Assembly (NCBI GenBank): GCA_001801025.1
Contig: MGWO01000007.1
Span: forward strand, 496,001-560,000
Length of the DNA stretch: 64,000 nucleotides
Origin: Gallionellales bacterium GWA2_54_124
GTDB taxonomy: Bacteria; Pseudomonadota; Gammaproteobacteria; Burkholderiales; Gallionellaceae
Direction: 5' to 3'
Positions 12,435 to 54,847 of this stretch are shown in pieces (the stretch's first letter is position 1; each line of letters begins with the position of its first letter). The position numbers and the translations under genes were made by a program. The notes under the pieces are model-generated. The model was given only the letters and a program-made list of their open reading frames with translations. It ran no database searches and was not told the origin of the DNA.

Positions 12435-12463
12435 ATCCTAGTTTGAAAATGTCATGTGGTCAA
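12435..12463 (-). promoter_or_regulatory. Predicted promoter of the tracrRNA
   Basis: On the minus strand TTGACC (12463-12458) is followed after exactly 17 bases by TAGGAT (12440-12435), a good sigma70 pair. The start site would be near 12428, just before the anti-repeat. A TAGAAT box at 12475-12480 on the plus strand could be the cas9 -10, so the divergent promoters nearly overlap. Confidence 0.75.
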
Positions 12464-12505
12464 GGAAATCGTACTAGAATCACCCACTCACGCTGGGGAG
12501 AAAAC

Positions 12506-15500
12506 ATGTTACGCAAAATGCACTATCGATTGGCACTCGACTTGGGGTCAACTTCGCTCGGTTGGGCGATGATTCGGCTCAATGCAGGCAACGAGCCTTG
12601 TGCGGTAATTAAGGCGGGTGTGCGCATATTCTCGAATGGCCGAAATCCCAAAGATGGCAGTTCGCTAGCAGTGACGCGACGCGAAGCGCGCGCCATGCGC
12701 CGACGACGTGATCGCCTGCTTAAACGCAAAGCGCGCATGATACAGACACTCATCGAATATGGATTCTTCCCCGCCAAAGAAGATCAGCGTAAAGCGCTGG
12801 AAATCATGAACCCTTTTGCTTTACGTGCAAAAGGACTGAATGAAGCCCTTACCCCTGCCGAATTTGCCCGCGCGCTGTTCCACATCAACCAGCGGCGCGG
12901 CTTCAAGAGTAATCGCAAAACGGATAAAAAAGACAATGACAGCGGCGCACTAAAAACTGCCATCAACAAGTTGCGCGAAACGCTAAAGACGGAAAATTGC
13001 CGGACAGTGGGTGAATGGCTGAACAAACGCGATGTGGCAGGACTTACCGTTCGCGCCCGCTACCATCAGGACAAAACCATCAAGGAAGATGGAAAATCAA
13101 AGATCAACAAGTATTACGACTTGTATATCGACCGCGCCATGATCGAACATGAGTTCGATGAGTTATGGAAAAAACAGGCTGAACTAAACCCAACCCTATT
13201 CACCGAGGCTGCACGAGCCGACCTGAAAGATGTACTGCTGCATCAACGCGCACTCAAACCTGTCAAACCGGGTCGCTGCACATTTATGCCTGATGAAGAA
13301 CGCGCGCCATTGGCCTTGCCCAGCACACAACGTTTTCGCATGTACCAGGAAGTCAATAATCTGCGCATCTTGCGCGATGGATTAAAAGAAGAATCGCTGA
13401 CATTGAATCAGCGCGACGATCTCATTGCCGCATTGGAAGAGAACAACAAGCGCACTTTTACGCAAATCAAAAAATTGCTTGGACTGGGCGGGGTGGTCAA
13501 GTTTAACTTTGAAGACCCAAAACGCGAGGAACTCAAAGGTAATACCACCAGCGCCATCTTGGGTAAAGATGAACATTTCGGTTCGGTGTGGTTTAAATTC
13601 GATGAAGCGAAGCAAGATGCCATCGTCATGCAATTGTTCAAAGAAGAAAATGAAGCCAAGCTCTTGCGCTGGCTGCAAAATGAAACAGGCATTGATGAGA
13701 AGCGAGCCGAGACCATCGCCAATGTTGGATTACCAGAAGGCTACGGCAGTCTATGTGCTTTGGCACTGGCGCGCATTCTGCCGGAACTGCGCCGTGATGT
13801 TGTACCGTATTCTGATGCTGCAAAAGCTGCTGGTTTTCACCATAGCGACACAAGCAATAACCAAGAAGTGCCGGGCCTTACTTTTCCAATCGAACTAGTC
13901 GTTACCGAAACTGGAGAAATCAAAACCAAACATATATTTCACGAACTTCCTTACTATGGCGAATATCTACAACGACATGTTGGCTTTGGTAGCGGCAAGC
14001 CCGAAGACTCCGCTGAAAAACGTTACGGAAAAATTGCCAACCCCACCGTGCATATCGGGTTGAACCAAGTTCGCCTTGTGGTGAATACTCTCATCAAGCG
14101 TTACGGACATCCCAGCGAAGTAATTGTTGAAGTGGCACGCGATTTAAAGCAAAGCAAAGACTTGCGCGATGAAGAGGGCAAGCGTCAAGCCGAAAATCAA
14201 AAACGCAACAAGCGAATTCGCACAGCCATTGCAGGTGTTTTGCAGACAAGTGAAGAGCGGGTCAGGCGCGATGACATTGAAAAAATGATTCTATGGGAAG
14301 AACTCAGCTTTGATCCCGCTGATCGCCGCTGCCCTTATTCCGGAGTACAAATCAGCGCAGCCATGTTGCTAAGCGACGAAGTAGAAATCGAACACATCCT
14401 GCCCTTCTCACAAACACTGGACGACAGCCTCAACAACAAAACGGTAGCGCTCCGTCAGGCCAACCGCGTCAAAGGCAACCGCACTCCTTGGGAAGCATTT
14501 GGTGCGCAAAGCACGGCTGGCTTTGACTACGCGACCATCCTTGCCAGAGCGGAACATATGCCCAAAGGAAAACGCTACCGTTTTGCCGAAGACGGCTACC
14601 AACGCTGGCTCAAAGACGATGCTGGATTTTTACCGCGTGCGCTGAACGACACCCGCCACATGAGCAAGGTGGCGCGTGAATACATGAGCCTGATTTGTCC
14701 CAACACCCGCGTCATCCCCGGTCGCATGACTGCCATGCTGCGCGGCAAATTCGGCCTGAATGATGTGCTTGGCCTGAACGGAGAAAAGAACCGCAACGAC
14801 CACCGCCACCACGCGGTGGATGCCTGTGTGATTGCCGTGACAGACCAAGGCTTGCTACAGCGCTTCGCCAAAGCCAGCGCCAGCGCGCGCGAACAGCAAC
14901 TCAACCGCCTTGTGGAAAACATGCCGTTACCGTGGGAAAGTTATCGGGAGCATGTGGAACGCGCCATTGATGCTATTTGGGTGAGCCACAAGCCTGATCA
15001 TAGCCACGAAGGCGCAATGCACAACGACACCGCTTACGGCTTGCTCGGTGATGGCAAAGTCAGCATCCACAAAATGGTAGAGGGGAAACGTGAGCGCATT
15101 GAGGAAAGCCTCAAGGTCATCGCATTCACTAACGCAAAAGCCAATGATCGACACGGCTTACTAGACAACGGTGAGCCAAGGCCATACAAAGGCTACAAAG
15201 GTGACAGCAACTACTGCATCGAAATTATTCGTAATGAAAAAGGCAAATGGGAAGGCGAAGTTATCTCCACGTTTGATGCTTATCAGCTAGTCCGAGAACA
15301 CGGAGTAGCACGGCTACGGCATCCGACTTTGAGTGTTAGCGGGAAGCCATTGGTGATGCGGTTGATGAAGGATGAAACCATTCGCATGGTGACAAATGAA
15401 AAGCCAATCACCGCAAGAGTTTGTTGGGTCAGGTCAGACACCCGCATAGCCTTTGCGAGTACGAGCGAAGCCAATGTAGATGCGAGAGATCGGGATAAGA

Positions 15501-15613
15501 ATGACTCATTCAGCTATATCGTAAAAACGGCAAGCGTTTTGCAAAAATTACAAGCGCGCCGTATAAGTATTTCGCCGACTGGCGAACTCCGCGACCCAGG
15601 TTTCAAGGAGTAA
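12506..15613 (+). CDS. cas9: CRISPR-associated endonuclease Cas9, type II-C
   Basis: RNA-guided DNA endonuclease, 1035 residues, in the compact type II-C range. Catalytic parts look intact: RuvC-I LALDLGSTSLGW (D12), Arg-rich bridge helix (about 58-80, with MRRRRDRLLKRK), RuvC-II VIVEVARDL (E542), HNH VEIEHILPFS (H630, with N653 downstream), and RuvC-III HHAVDA (H769, D772). The first HNH metal ligand is Glu629 where SpCas9 has Asp. The C-terminal ~250 residues would hold the PAM-interacting part. ATG 12506 is preferred to the frame opening at 12443: it has SD GGGGAG, lies eight residues before the RuvC-I strand, and the longer form would overlap the tracrRNA promoter. cas1 follows after five bases. 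Confidence 0.97.
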   Translation: MLRKMHYRLALDLGSTSLGWAMIRLNAGNEPCAVIKAGVRIFSNGRNPKDGSSLAVTRREARAMRRRRDRLLKRKARMIQTLIEYGFFPAKEDQRKALEIMNPFALRAKGLNEALTPAEFARALFHINQRRGFKSNRKTDKKDNDSGALKTAINKLRETLKTENCRTVGEWLNKRDVAGLTVRARYHQDKTIKEDGKSKINKYYDLYIDRAMIEHEFDELWKKQAELNPTLFTEAARADLKDVLLHQRALKPVKPGRCTFMPDEERAPLALPSTQRFRMYQEVNNLRILRDGLKEESLTLNQRDDLIAALEENNKRTFTQIKKLLGLGGVVKFNFEDPKREELKGNTTSAILGKDEHFGSVWFKFDEAKQDAIVMQLFKEENEAKLLRWLQNETGIDEKRAETIANVGLPEGYGSLCALALARILPELRRDVVPYSDAAKAAGFHHSDTSNNQEVPGLTFPIELVVTETGEIKTKHIFHELPYYGEYLQRHVGFGSGKPEDSAEKRYGKIANPTVHIGLNQVRLVVNTLIKRYGHPSEVIVEVARDLKQSKDLRDEEGKRQAENQKRNKRIRTAIAGVLQTSEERVRRDDIEKMILWEELSFDPADRRCPYSGVQISAAMLLSDEVEIEHILPFSQTLDDSLNNKTVALRQANRVKGNRTPWEAFGAQSTAGFDYATILARAEHMPKGKRYRFAEDGYQRWLKDDAGFLPRALNDTRHMSKVAREYMSLICPNTRVIPGRMTAMLRGKFGLNDVLGLNGEKNRNDHRHHAVDACVIAVTDQGLLQRFAKASASAREQQLNRLVENMPLPWESYREHVERAIDAIWVSHKPDHSHEGAMHNDTAYGLLGDGKVSIHKMVEGKRERIEESLKVIAFTNAKANDRHGLLDNGEPRPYKGYKGDSNYCIEIIRNEKGKWEGEVISTFDAYQLVREHGVARLRHPTLSVSGKPLVMRLMKDETIRMVTNEKPITARVCWVRSDTRIAFASTSEANVDARDRDKNDSFSYIVKTASVLQKLQARRISISPTGELRDPGFKE

Positions 15614-15618
15614 GAGCC

Positions 15619-16548
15619 ATGATAGGCCGCATCGTCGAAGTGGCAGATGACAGGCGGCACTTGTTCCTCTCTCGCGGCTTTATGGTGGTGCAAGATACCG
15701 AAGGTGAGCGCAAAGAGCTGGGGCAAGTACCGTTAGATGATGTCGCGGCTGTCATCGCCAATGCACATGGCCTGAGCTATACCAACAACCTATTAGTGGC
15801 ACTGGCCGAACGTTGCGCCCCCTTTGTGCTGTGCGCTGCTAATCACAACGCAGTGGGTATGGTGTTACCGATAGATGGCAACTATCAACAAGCAAAGCGT
15901 TTCGATGCGCAAATCGCCGCCAGTCAACCGCTAATAAAACGGCTATGGGCAGACATTGTTAAATCAAAACTCCAGCAACAAGCCGCCGCACTCGAAGCCA
16001 CTGGCGCACCATTTATTCCTCTGTCAGCTTTAGTCCGCAAAGTGCGTTCAGGCGACCCGGATAATTTTGAAGCGCAAGGAGCGCGGCGTTACTGGGGACT
16101 TTTGTTTGGTGATGACTTTCGGCGCGACCAACAAGGTGACGGGCTCAATGCAATGCTCAACTATGGCTATACAGCTCTACGTGCCGCCACCGCACGTGCA
16201 GTTGTTGCGGCAGGTCTGCATCCAACCATCGGGTTACACCATCGCAATGCAGGGAATGCCATGCGCTTAGTGGATGACTTGATGGAACCCTTTCGCCCCA
16301 TGATTGATCTGAAAGTCTGGCAGCTACATAAGCAAGGCGAAGGGCTGATTACGCCGGAAAGCAAACGCGCATTGGTGAGAACCCTATACGACGATATGCA
16401 AACCAGTGCAGGTGCGACTCCAGTGATGGTTTGCGCGCAAAAATTAGCCACCTCATTAGCGCAAATATTTATGGGAGAAAAAGATAAACTCGACCTGCCT
16501 TTGCCGGGCTTGCCGCTCAGCCTTGCTGCATCATTTCAAGACGACTAA
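15619..16548 (+). CDS. cas1: CRISPR-associated integrase Cas1
   Basis: Spacer-integration nuclease that works as a complex with Cas2. The 309 residues match type II Cas1. Probable metal ligands are E151 in NFEAQGARRYW, a His in GLHHRNAGNAM (about 207) and an acidic residue in LVDDLMEPFRP (about 220). SD AAGGAG overlaps the end of cas9, so the genes are coupled. cas2 starts six bases after the stop. No csn2 or cas4 is present, which defines subtype II-C. Confidence 0.97.
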   Translation: MIGRIVEVADDRRHLFLSRGFMVVQDTEGERKELGQVPLDDVAAVIANAHGLSYTNNLLVALAERCAPFVLCAANHNAVGMVLPIDGNYQQAKRFDAQIAASQPLIKRLWADIVKSKLQQQAAALEATGAPFIPLSALVRKVRSGDPDNFEAQGARRYWGLLFGDDFRRDQQGDGLNAMLNYGYTALRAATARAVVAAGLHPTIGLHHRNAGNAMRLVDDLMEPFRPMIDLKVWQLHKQGEGLITPESKRALVRTLYDDMQTSAGATPVMVCAQKLATSLAQIFMGEKDKLDLPLPGLPLSLAASFQDD

Positions 16549-16554
16549 CGTGAC

Positions 16555-16881
16555 ATGCTTTCCGGGTATCGCCTTATGTGGATTGTGGTGATGTTCGACT
16601 TACCCGTCGTTGAAAAAGTTGAGCGCAAAGCCGCCACGGATTTTCGCAATGCCTTGCTCGACATGGGATTTGAGATGTCTCAATTTTCCGTTTACATGCG
16701 TTTTTGCAGCAGCCAAGGTCAAGTAGACACCTATTGCACACAAGTAGAAAAGAGTTTGCCTAAAGGCGGCAAAGTCAATATCCTTCAATTCACCGACAAG
16801 CAGTATGAGCGCATCATCACTTTTCGCGGTAAAGCCAAACAGCCGAGAAATAAATTACCTGACCAGTACGATCTTTTTTGA
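16555..16881 (+). CDS. cas2: CRISPR-associated protein Cas2
   Basis: 108-residue ferredoxin-fold partner of Cas1 in spacer acquisition. The start LSGYRLMWIVVMFDLPV carries the conserved Asp at the end of beta-1, followed by the RNALLDMGFEMSQFSVYMRFC helix and strand. Last gene of the cas operon. The first CRISPR repeat begins 70 bases after its stop. Confidence 0.96.
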   Translation: MLSGYRLMWIVVMFDLPVVEKVERKAATDFRNALLDMGFEMSQFSVYMRFCSSQGQVDTYCTQVEKSLPKGGKVNILQFTDKQYERIITFRGKAKQPRNKLPDQYDLF

Positions 16882-16951: not shown

Positions 16952-18043
16952 ATTGTAGCAGATTGGGATTTGCGCTCTGACCGGAACTTTGCTGGCCTTG
17001 CTGTTGAGCCTGCGCAAATTGTAGCAGATTGGGATTTGCGCTCTGACCGGAACTTGTCCCATGCCATCACGGACAGTTGCAACATTGTAGCAGATTGGGA
17101 TTTGCGCTCTGACCGGAACTTCAGACTGATTCCTGTCAACAACGCACAAATTGTAGCAGATTGGGATTTGCGCTCTGACCGGAACAGCCGCACACGTCGT
17201 GAACGTAGCAGCGCGATTGTAGCAGATTGGGATTTGCGCTCTGACCGGAACCCTTGCTCGCCAGTTGCAGATGCTGCGCCTATTGTAGCAGATTGGGATT
17301 TGCGCTCTGACCGGAACACGGGTGAAAGTTCGGTGCGAATCGATTTGATTGTAGCAGATTGGGATTTGCGCTCTGACCGGAACAAGTGTTGGTCGCTCGT
17401 CTTTCATGTGCATATTGTAGCAGATTGGGATTTGCGCTCTGACCGGAACTTGGTTGAACCCATCGACCCCGTGGCAGTCATTGTAGCAGATTGGGATTTG
17501 CGCTCTGACCGGAACTCGGTCATTACCGATACTACCGCAAACAGGATTGTAGCAGATTGGGATTTGCGCTCTGACCGGAACGTGATGCGACCGTTGGTGC
17601 GGCTAAAGTCAATTGTAGCAGATTGGGATTTGCGCTCTGACCGGAACCCGAGATCCAGTCATAGAACACTCTAATCTATTGTAGCAGATTGGGATTTGCG
17701 CTCTGACCGGAACCTTGATATGCTTGGGCGAGTCAATGACCTGATTGTAGCAGATTGGGATTTGCGCTCTGACCGGAACTATATTCATCAGGGATCTCAT
17801 TGCGCTGTAATTGTAGCAGATTGGGATTTGCGCTCTGACCGGAACCACTCCTTGACGTAATCGCTCAGGGCCTTAATTGTAGCAGATTGGGATTTGCGCT
17901 CTGACCGGAACATCAGTGCATCAGCTTCGGCTTTAGCCTTGATTGTAGCAGATTGGGATTTGCGCTCTGACCGGAACAATACGCTGTTGAATTGCGCGTT
18001 AAACATCATTGTAGCAGATTGGGATTTGCGCTCTGACCGGAGC
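16952..18043 (-). CRISPR. Type II-C CRISPR array, 17 repeats and 16 spacers
   Basis: Repeats of 36 bp start every 66 bp from 16952 to 18008, so all 16 spacers are exactly 30 bp and all differ. On the plus strand each repeat begins ATTGTAGCAG and ends TGACCGGAAC. Sixteen are identical by eye; the last (18008-18043) ends AGC for AAC. The crRNA-sense strand is the minus strand: there the repeat starts GTTCCGG and ends TGCTACAAT, an extended -10 box identical to the repeat-embedded promoter of Neisseria, so each spacer can have its own start site. The minus-strand sense is also the one that pairs with the predicted tracrRNA. Long ORFs across the array are artefacts of the 66-bp period. Confidence 0.98.
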
Positions 18044-26956: not shown

Positions 26957-27124
26957 TTCGAGATCTGTACTCAAGTTAGCATCATTCGCGGTCAAGTTGA
27001 GTTGATCCGCAGGCAAGTTAACATGATCTGCGAGCCATATGAGTTGATCAGCAGGCAAGTTGACATGATCTTCGAACCATATGAGTTCATCCGCGGGCAA
27101 GTTAACACGATCCGCGAACCAGTT
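26957..27124 (-). repeat. Array of eight 21-bp repeats (minus orientation)
   Basis: Eight contiguous 21-bp units, with a stronger 42-bp super-period over 26999-27124. Read on the minus strand, units resemble AACTTGCCTGCGGATCAACTC or ATATGGTTCGAAGATCATGTC. In one frame they encode a heptad such as NLPADQL or IWLADHV. Units grow more diverged toward 26957. Confidence 0.9.
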
Positions 27125-27191
27125 AACAGGCGCGGCAGACTGGAGCGGTTGCCCGGCGCCGTGTCACGGGTATCTGAGTCAGCGTGCAGAC

Positions 27192-27275
27192 GACTTCATA
27201 TGGTTCGCGGATGAACTGATCTGGTTCGCAGATGAACTAATATGCTTCGAAGATGAGCCCATATGGTTCGAAGAT
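27192..27275 (+). repeat. Array of four 21-bp repeats (plus orientation)
   Basis: Four units of the same family, in the opposite orientation to the array at 26957-27124 and 67 bases from it; a fifth degenerate unit may follow to 27296. Units resemble GAACTGATCTGGTTCGCAGAT and encode ELIWFAD-type heptads in one frame. Confidence 0.88.
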
Positions 27276-27706
27276 CATCTGAAACTGACGGCAGAGCCTA
27301 TCAGATAGCGTGCGGAACCCGCAAGAATAAGTGGCGAGCCCGCAGGGCGGATAAAAAATCACGCCGTAGCAATTGTGAATTATGTTCGTAATGCAGTCCG
27401 GTTTTTACTTAACCCACCAAAAGGAATTCGATCATGGATGGCGCATAAAAATCTGCTGCGCGACGGCGGTACGGATTTCGCAAACTGGCCGACCGTTCTT
27501 AAAACGGATGAAGCAACACCTCCCGTTGTTGCACCTGGCATTATTTCTCGCCTGTCCACGCTGGTTGCCCGAAACCAGCCCGTCGTGGACAGCATTGACG
27601 GGTCTTTGCTGGATGGATTCCTACGTTTTTCCGTTACTATCATTCGATCCCGAATTTAAATAGTTATTGCCCGTGATCTTATATATCGTTTTGATATAAT
27701 CGGCGC

Positions 27707-28009
27707 ATGCACATCATCTCTATAAAAATGCTTCGTGAGTTCTGGCAGAAACATCCTGAAGCAGAAAAGGTATTACGGGAGTGGCACACGGTTGTTGAGC
27801 ATGCCGAGTTTATAGACTTTAATCATGTTCGTGAATTTTTCAACTCCGCCGACTATGTGCCACCCTATACCGTCTTTGATGTGGGCGGAAACAACTATCG
27901 CTTAGTGGTTATCGTTAGATACAGGTTCAAAAAAGTCTTTGTACATAAGGTGATGACACACAGGGAATACGATAACTGGAACAAACTCTATCGGAAAGGC
28001 AAGGGCTAA
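27707..28009 (+). CDS. higB: HigB-type mRNA interferase toxin
   Basis: 100 residues of the HigB family: a ribosome-dependent endoribonuclease that cuts translated mRNA when free of its antitoxin. Family cues are MLREFWQKHPEAEKVLREW, NNYRLVVIVRY and VFVHKVMTHREYDNW. As usual for hig loci the toxin is first; the antitoxin starts two bases after the stop. A TTGATATAAT-like -10 lies just upstream (about 27690). Confidence 0.93.
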   Translation: MHIISIKMLREFWQKHPEAEKVLREWHTVVEHAEFIDFNHVREFFNSADYVPPYTVFDVGGNNYRLVVIVRYRFKKVFVHKVMTHREYDNWNKLYRKGKG

Positions 28010-28011
28010 AT

Positions 28012-28440
28012 ATGCGCGCTACTTATACCCAGTTTGATATCATGGGAATTCAATCTTCCTGGCAAGCCTTTGATGAAATGGTGCATTTGCGTCCTATCCA
28101 AAACGAGGATGGCTATGATCGAATGGTTGCGCTCATGAATTCTCTATTGGACGCTACCGGCGATGATGAAGATCATCCTCTGGCGGGTTTGCTCAATTTA
28201 GTTGCCGATATGGTGTCTAGGTACGAGCAAGAACACTATGCTATTGAGGCAGCCACGCCTAAAGATGCCTTGCGTTTTTTAATGGATGCACGTGGTTTAA
28301 AGCAAGAAGACTTGTCTGCTATCGTGCCACAAAGCAACCTGTCAGCTATCTTGGCAGGAAAACGTAAAATCAGCGCAACGCTGGCTGGGAAACTAGGTAA
28401 GTTTTTCGGAATTAGCCCAGCTGTGTTTGTGCCTGCTTAA
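28012..28440 (+). CDS. higA: HigA-type antitoxin with HTH domain
   Basis: 142 residues. The N-terminal half is helical and acidic (toxin binding). The C-terminal half is an XRE-type helix-turn-helix: MDARGLKQEDLSAIVPQSNLSAILAGKRKIS. It neutralises HigB and should repress the higBA promoter. Length and HTH position fit HigA. The locus sits in an accessory region full of remnants, consistent with transfer or addiction. Confidence 0.93.
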   Translation: MRATYTQFDIMGIQSSWQAFDEMVHLRPIQNEDGYDRMVALMNSLLDATGDDEDHPLAGLLNLVADMVSRYEQEHYAIEAATPKDALRFLMDARGLKQEDLSAIVPQSNLSAILAGKRKISATLAGKLGKFFGISPAVFVPA

Positions 28441-28527
28441 CAAAAACAGTCCATTTCAAACGATGTGATTGCATTGCGGCGCTGGCTGAATGTGAACTAA
28501 CTATGGTCGGCGAAAGGCAGTTGAAAT

Positions 28528-28710
28528 ATGGACAGTTTGCAACGTATCTATAAGCTGCACCAGGCAATTTTCTCACGCCGCCATCCCGTATCCTGTCAGA
28601 CTCTGCAAGACGAGCTTGAATGTTCACGCGCTACGGTTAATCGTGGCATTCGAGATATGCGATTGTTTTTCAATGCGCCGATTGATTACAGCCGTGAGCA
28701 CAACGGCTAG
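28528..28710 (+). pseudogene. Truncated WYL-type transcriptional regulator
   Basis: 60 codons of an HTH_11 N-terminus: MDSLQRIYKLHQAIFSRRHP, QTLQDELECSRATVNRGIRDMR, then FFNAPIDYSREHNG and a stop. Intact relatives go on with a Tyr after NG and a ~200-residue WYL ligand-binding part, which is missing here. The stop codon TAG is the first three bases of TAGGCCC, which matches the end of the CRISPR-like repeat that follows. The break is therefore at the junction with that element. Not expected to function as a full regulator. Confidence 0.75.
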
Positions 28711-28836
28711 GCCCTAAGGCCGAAGTACAGGCTTGGGCTACCAGAGGTTTCCCCCGCGCCTGCGAGGATAGGCCCATGAGCGAGAAGGGTACGATGGGGC
28801 GCGATGTGTTTCCCCCTCCCGTGGGGGCATCGCACT
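28708..28836. CRISPR. Relic of a type I-E-like CRISPR array
   Basis: A 29-bp unit at 28747-28775 (starts GTTTCCCCCGCGCC, ends GATAGGCCC, with a near-palindromic CCCCGC...GCGAGG stem) resembles type I-E repeats. It is flanked by two stretches of exactly 32 bp, the type I-E spacer length: 28715-28746 and 28776-28807. Before the first lies TAGGCCC (28708-28714), the end of another repeat. After the second is a degenerate unit (28808-28836) keeping GTTTCCCCC and the stem with GGGGG. No type I cas genes are in the window. Confidence 0.7.
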
Positions 28837-29300
28837 TATTGATTTCAGTTTCAACCTTAAGTTTTCCGCCCATAGGGATGAACTGCCAACTTTGCGCGAA
28901 TGGGGAGATTGACGAGCGTTATTACCCCCTGAATATCATGCTCCGAAGCTGCCCGTCGTGACGGACCGCAGTGTCTCGATTGCCCGCATTCGCCAATGAC
29001 TGGTTCGGAGCAGGCCAAATAATTGAACGGAGAAAAACCTCTAATGCCCGCTTGCAGGCGGTGTATTATTAAAGCTGTGCATCGGCTGCGTGCCATAAAC
29101 GGACTGTCGAGGTATAGAACATTTAGCAAGAAAACTGACGGTCGTGACAGTAGCAATGTCAGTAGCAATGTCAGTAGCAATGTCAGTAGCAATGTCAGTA
29201 GCAATGTCAGTAGCAATGTCAGTAGCAATGTCAGTAGCAATGTCAGTAGCAGCTACATTACAGTGTAACTTAAATGCATATTGTGATAGGGAGCAGGAAT
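28837..29300. other. Noncoding region before the PAS-GGDEF gene
   Basis: No credible gene. Contains GTGCCAT-N5-GACTGTCGAGGTATAGAA (29089-29119), also found at 12159-12188, and the 12-bp tandem repeat at 29149-29244. ORFs through the tandem repeat (SNVS or LLTL runs) are artefacts. Confidence 0.55.
29149..29244 (+). repeat. Eight perfect tandem copies of a 12-bp unit
   Basis: AGTAGCAATGTC is repeated eight times without change, followed by a diverged ninth (AGTAGCAGCTAC). The array ends about 56 bases before the likely start of the PAS-GGDEF gene, so it lies in its 5' leader or promoter. Confidence 0.96.

Positions 29301-54760: not shown

Positions 54761-54847
<87 letters not shown>

Follow-up and report, generated by a model that had tools for sequence, protein, structure and literature searches.

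The loss of CRISPR-Cas systems commonly occurs. Orphan arrays and isolated cas loci are already well described, as far as the available parts of two accounts show (PMC5294841, PMC8616872). The same holds for WYL regulators of CRISPR operons, an example being sll7009 of the Synechocystis type I-D system, cited in the accessible text of PMC4012209. In the available portion of a report on Gallionella ES-2, CRISPR sequences were not identified (PMC3770913).

Here we describe a locus of Gallionellales bacterium GWA2_54_124 at which the beginning of a WYL-family regulator gene runs directly into what remains of a type I-E-like array, and which is most probably the fossil of an operon that lost its interior by deletion. 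The window is the whole stretch of 64,000 nucleotides that was analysed (contig MGWO01000007.1, positions 496,001 to 560,000); genomes and loci are given by G and L numbers where they need to be told apart, G000 being the genome of the window. A literature search found no account of this locus.

Results

Structure of the locus

The features of the locus and of its surroundings are collected in Table 1. The preliminary description, made from the letters of the window, had proposed a repeat tail, a 32-base stretch, a 29-base repeat, another 32-base stretch and a degenerate unit, with exact 29/32 type I-E geometry and with a WYL reading frame that ends where TAGGCCC starts, and all of this layout and its coordinates are confirmed. 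The tail, the full repeat and the degenerate unit stand in register at 61-nt steps with 32-nt spacers, as in a type I-E array, and the first three bases of TAGGCCC are the stop codon of the 60-codon frame (TAG, 28708-28710). The full unit departs from the consensus at 1 of its 29 positions and the degenerate unit at 9, the next-best sites in the window having 11 mismatches. Counting both strands (128,000 positions), GTTTCCCCC occurs twice in the window, both times at the two units of the array, and TAGGCCC occurs four times. The relic has no leader; the direction of the repeat places the leader side on the left, where the regulator sits. The repeat had also been called a hairpin, of which the 29-bp unit is real but the surviving copy folds weakly, at -7.4 kcal/mol, a value equalled by 67 of 200 shuffles; the corresponding repeat of G203, described below, folds at -13.1 kcal/mol (equalled by 8 of 200).

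With just one full repeat present, a chance resemblance or an assembly chimera might be suspected, but we regard either as extremely improbable, given that two exact words flank the spacers at fixed spacing. For the words at their fixed positions, a first-order Markov model built on the window gives probabilities of 2.4e-5 (TAGGCCC) and 1.3e-6 (GTTTCCCCC), with a product of about 3e-11; moreover, the contig spans 1,249,575 bases and this kind of repeat is found in eight other genomes.

Table 1. Features of the array remnant, the adjoining genes and the type II system, in window coordinates.
Feature	Coordinates	Strand	Remarks
HigB-like toxin gene	27707..28009	+	PF09907; partner of the HigA-like antitoxin
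HigA-like antitoxin gene	28012..28440	+	HTH_3; beside the former operon
Upstream region of regulator gene, presumed promoter	28441..28527	+	Conserved with G069
Truncated WYL-family regulator gene	28528..28710	+	60 codons and TAG; N-terminal HTH, WYL domain absent
Junction	28708..28709		TA compatible with regulator side and repeat side; break within 28707-28710
Repeat tail of broken type I-E repeat	28708..28714	+	TAGGCCC, 3' part, 7 of 29 bases; 32 bases before the full repeat
Relic-array spacer 1	28715..28746	+	32 nt; between repeat tail and full repeat
Sole full-length type I-E repeat	28747..28775	+	29 nt, GTTTCCCCCGCGCCTGCGAGGATAGGCCC; one stem position differs from relatives
Relic-array spacer 2	28776..28807	+	32 nt; between full repeat and degenerate unit
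Degenerate terminal repeat	28808..28836	+	Starts GTTTCCCCCTCCCGTGGGGG...; 9 of 29 mismatches to consensus; leader-distal end
Type II cas genes	12443..16881	+	cas9 12443-15613, cas1 15619-16548, cas2 16555-16881; Cas9, Cas1 and Cas2 model matches
Type II array	16952..18043	+	17 repeats (36 nt) and 16 spacers (30 nt)

To the right of the join, the flank 28711-29290 is untraceable in relatives: across the 76 genomes of the genus, matches consist of dispersed sequence from query position 237 on, the only exceptions being the window itself and one repeat match in G054. A dispersed repeat (28972-29113) has a 94% identical copy elsewhere in the same genome (G000:C4:123325-123466), with weaker copies there and in several other genomes of the genus. 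A 12-bp tandem repeat (29148-29251; CAGTAGCAATGT, eight perfect units and a partial one) is situated after the array remnant and before a PAS-GGDEF gene, and upstream of the HigBA genes a region of repeats with a 21-bp period (26962-27282) is made of two halves with inverted matches between them. A search of the whole window against Rfam at gathering thresholds returned only a tRNA (54761-54844).

Relatives of the repeat

The repeat was sought in 76 genomes of the genus (up to three mismatches), 369 of the class (up to two) and 399 of the order (up to three), sets that overlap, and is present in nine genomes, each counted once: that of the window, G053, G054, G203, G451, G498, G665, G772 and G781. 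The closest repeat overall is that of G781, at 27 of 29 bases. Those of G203 and G498, each identical to the window repeat at 26 of 29 bases, form long arrays, each accompanied by a WYL gene and a complete series of cas genes; the array of G203 has 74 units at an unvarying step of 61 bp, and that of G498 has 52 units, with 49 of its 51 steps at 61 bp and two at 62. Both operons are arranged as WYL - cas3 - cas8e - cse2 - cas7 - cas5 - cas6e - cas1 - cas2 - array, on one strand. The six G203 proteins tested with PADLOC matched Cas3e, Cas8e, Cas11e, Cas7e, Cas6 (with Cas6e second) and Cas1e; for G498, PADLOC identified Cas8e and genes were otherwise assigned from similarity to G203, and cas5 and cas2 of the complete operons were assigned by similarity alone. 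By sequence comparison the window repeat is assigned to type I-E, because close repeats form arrays behind these complete type I-E operons. The same call in the preliminary description is upheld by these 26-of-29 matches, and relatives with an intact WYL gene and type I-E cas set, which it had suggested looking for, do exist in G203 and G498.

Remaining CRISPR content and spacer targets

Within the genome of the window the repeat occurs once (up to three mismatches). Neither Cas8e nor Cas6e was found there, and the C-terminal part of the G069 Cas3 had no match in a search made without a positive control. The locus has the features of a degenerate or orphan CRISPR locus, namely an array remnant, decayed repeats and no matching cas genes found. 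The genome has a single Cas1 gene, matched as two pieces of one frame, and it lies within the type II system. The presence of this system in the host had already been proposed, with II-C as its putative subtype; as a type II system it is substantiated by the Cas9, Cas1 and Cas2 model matches and the array of 17 repeats.

Phage matches of the two spacers had been suggested as a further check, and a convincing target was found for neither. Comparison with phages and plasmids by blastn gave only matches with E of at least 0.9, a pattern search of viral contigs with partial spacers gave nothing, and among the 76 genus genomes, including their own, the spacers matched only the array itself at up to three mismatches. 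Nor was there a match at up to eight mismatches in 1.15 Mb of fetched loci, a set from which most loci of the own genome are left out. We also considered type I-E genes as targets of the type II array, and an anti-cas guide function of the relic spacers; both ideas were dropped, the fetched loci yielding a single marginal match, of one type II spacer in L134 with exactly seven mismatches.

These observations bear on whether the two-spacer array is still useful, either because it is transcribed and then processed by Cas proteins of another origin or because it is kept for regulation. It does stand in line behind a conserved upstream region, and orphan arrays with proposed roles are mentioned in the available text of PMC8616872 and PMC5294841; set against this are the failure to find Cas6e and Cas8e in the genome, the weakened stem of the surviving repeat and the lack of a target at up to three mismatches in the genus genomes, and we consider continued use highly improbable.

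The regulator stump and its family

The 60 residues match HTH_11 (PF08279) over residues 6-55 and the PADLOC WYL model with E 2.5e-6. The WYL domain itself (PF13280) is not matched in them and is present in the G069 protein (E 3e-20), so that the WYL identity of the stump comes from the PADLOC match and from its relatives, the 60 residues themselves containing the HTH domain only. Matches to the regulator at E of 0.001 or less occur in 22 of the 76 genus genomes and, the own genome aside, 14 match all 60 residues at 65-97% identity. One further stump of the same WYL gene, of 27 codons, is present in G004, a single-contig genome with no Cas1 match (L040 9427-9507, - strand).

A scan of genome contigs located relatives of the full-length WYL family at 33 loci, and downstream contents were sorted by hand for the 28 that are at least 50% identical, some of which come from genomes also in the genus search. 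Genes of a type I-C-like operon follow at 12 loci (Cas8c being confirmed by PADLOC in three), type I-E genes at four, and an array with a 28-nt repeat at three, in one of which PADLOC confirmed Cas1f, Cas5f and Cas6f. Two others have a cas3 piece only, on a short contig, one shows a type I-E-like array, without visible cas genes, where its contig ends, and six have no CRISPR genes or array in the stretch examined (one with a weak helicase match). With cas genes or arrays downstream of most of these relatives, the WYL gene is seen commonly to stand first in type I CRISPR-Cas operons of this group of bacteria. One and the same family precedes type I-C, I-E and I-F genes (L082-L109; L098, L043, L049, L050; L115, L137), in records titled Gallionella, Sideroxydans and Nitrosomonas, and the regulator therefore seems, from this distribution, to have been exchanged between CRISPR subtypes.

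Comparison with G069

The closest regulator is that of G069, a member of the same genus, with 97% identity over the 60 residues and 172 of 182 bases. Starting within the HigA gene and crossing the intergenic region, the DNA of the window aligns with that of G069 gap-free as far as codon 60; the last base of homology is 28709, within the join, and from 28710 on the two are alike no longer. A deletion with one end in the regulator and the other in a repeat would produce just this pattern of homology up to codon 60 followed by a repeat tail. The G069 WYL gene continues past codon 60 and is followed by a Cas3 C-terminal part and then by Cas8e (the Cas3e and Cas8e models match); no array was found on the 7-kb contig of G069. 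The C-terminal part of HigA, 86 residues at 87% identity, also stands ahead of the G069 WYL gene, and gene neighbours beyond HigA differ from those of the window, so that the comparison with G069 extends from HigA to codon 60.

Two further features of these neighbourhoods may be recorded. The HigB/HigA pair (27707-28440) is directly upstream of the stump in the window; of this pair, the search of G069 recovered only the C-terminal part of HigA ahead of the WYL gene. The G069 operon is itself damaged: its WYL gene runs into the cas3 C-terminal part (L038 2224-2312), which reflects either a separate deletion at the operon head or an assembly fault.

Over the 60 codons, the window and G069 differ by 10 base changes, seven synonymous and three non-synonymous, the latter in two codons, giving a pN/pS of about 0.12; under neutrality the chance of at least seven synonymous changes is 0.0014. 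With this ratio, the regulator gene can be taken to have been constrained for most of the time since the split of the two, which in turn suggests that the deletion was fairly recent. The same ratio, together with an HTH_11 match that covers residues 6-55, could be read as a sign that the 60-residue fragment is a functional small DNA-binding protein maintained by selection. A low pN/pS is, however, equally expected from a recent deletion, the two amino-acid changes are seen in the window alone of the 13 rows aligned, and WYL regulators generally require their C-terminal part; we therefore hold a selected role for the fragment to be very unlikely. The G072 row, which lay one codon out of register, was left out of the codon comparison.

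The nearest-regulator genome and the nearest-array genomes represent different type I-E lineages. The G069 Cas8e is 44% identical to that of G054, and neither the G203 locus nor the G498 locus gave a match to it at E 1e-5; for the Cas3 part of G069, identity is 73% with the G054 protein and about 40% with those of G203 and G498; the main array of G054 has repeats of another kind. A near-identical regulator and the same kind of repeat within one intact operon were found in no genome searched. As the Cas8e lineage of G069 is unlike that of the sister-repeat operons, the two halves of the window locus could stem from two CRISPR-Cas systems that once lay side by side, fragments of which were joined by one or more deletions. 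The distribution of the WYL family points the same way, since a regulator that precedes I-C, I-E and I-F genes is no predictor of the repeat, and stacked remnants do occur, G772 having a WYL gene before one array and a WYL fragment after it. Even so, both complete sister-repeat operons begin with a WYL gene and have the gene order and strand required, and a single event is simpler, so that we regard an origin from two systems as rather unlikely.

Remnants in other genomes

A WYL gene or stump is present at the locus in five of the nine repeat-bearing genomes; it heads a complete operon in G203 and G498, and the loci of G772, G053 and the window are damaged. In G772 a WYL gene stands before a cas3 that has an internal gap and adjoins an array of eight units and a degenerate one. 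In G053 (L044) a full-length WYL gene and about 340 bases precede three repeats that include the same spacer twice; the cas queries had no match in the 14-kb stretch, and the genome has no Cas8e match and a Cas1 elsewhere. Like the window locus, both pair a WYL gene with a short array of this repeat kind; at the locus, cas genes are missing in G053 and only the broken cas3 is left in G772 (L138). They differ from it in that the G772 array adjoins cas3, and in that the WYL gene of G053 is of full length and set apart from its array; from this, the two look like separate events. At the G772 locus (L138 10469-13609) the last unit of the I-E array adjoins a fragment of a second WYL gene, and the whole forms a stack of CRISPR remnants.

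Elsewhere, G665 has a single repeat near cas6e-like and cas4-like fragments, G451 has one repeat and G781 has two, near a contig end, both with no cas matches in the stretch examined, and G054 has a lone unit of the window-type repeat beyond its own different array.

Discussion

The arrangement at this locus is best explained by a deletion within a type I-E operon that began in the regulator gene and ended in the trailer part of the array, a reading to which, on sequence comparison, we give a probability of roughly 0.88. Its ancestor, as reconstructed from relatives, would have had the gene order of G203 and G498 on one strand, with a leader between cas2 and the array. The left breakpoint would lie around codon 60 in the regulator and the right one within a repeat toward the array's trailer, the two sharing no more than TA; the end of homology at the join is shown by the alignment, and the molecular mechanism is our proposal. 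The join itself would have created the stop codon, and what was left over would be an HTH fragment of 60 residues, one slightly altered repeat between two old spacers, and the degenerate terminal repeat. Such a remnant should no longer serve as immunity, because neither Cas6e nor Cas8e was found in the genome. That a deletion took the rest of the regulator, the cas genes and most of the array had been put forward in the preliminary description, and it gains support from the cas3 and cas8e genes that follow the regulator in G069, from the operons of G203 and G498 and from the failure to find type I-E cas genes in the genome.

Three cases now run from the operon head toward the array: WYL to repeat in the window, cas3 to repeat in G772, and a whole WYL gene with the cas genes gone in G053. 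It is conceivable, though we put it forward only tentatively and think it on balance unlikely, that WYL-headed I-E operons with GATAGGCCC-like repeats have been lost repeatedly by head-to-array deletions, which remove the genes for effector and adaptation functions and spare the two ends of the operon. If so, this would speak for selection against the cas genes, arising for example from self-targeting or from a second CRISPR system, and against random decay. The window locus allows each side of the break to be identified, and several parallel remnants of one repeat lineage exist, so that it can be asked whether selection removes cas genes.

Compared with working type I-E CRISPR-Cas systems, the relic shares repeat length, spacer length and 26 of 29 repeat bases with those of G203 and G498, and differs in having one full repeat, no leader and no type I-E cas genes that could be found, so that it is a remnant and not a system. 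With the WYL regulators of CRISPR-Cas operons, as described in the available text of PMC4012209, the gene has in common its N-terminal HTH and, in its relatives, a position first in line ahead of the cas genes; it differs in being reduced to the HTH part, the WYL domain missing. As in the orphan and degenerate arrays treated in the accessible parts of PMC5294841 and PMC8616872, an array stands without cas genes of its own type and is seen as a product of decay. What is new is this particular case: here, in distinction to those arrays, the break is placed within two bases, and its other end lies inside a regulator gene of a kind found at the head of such operons.
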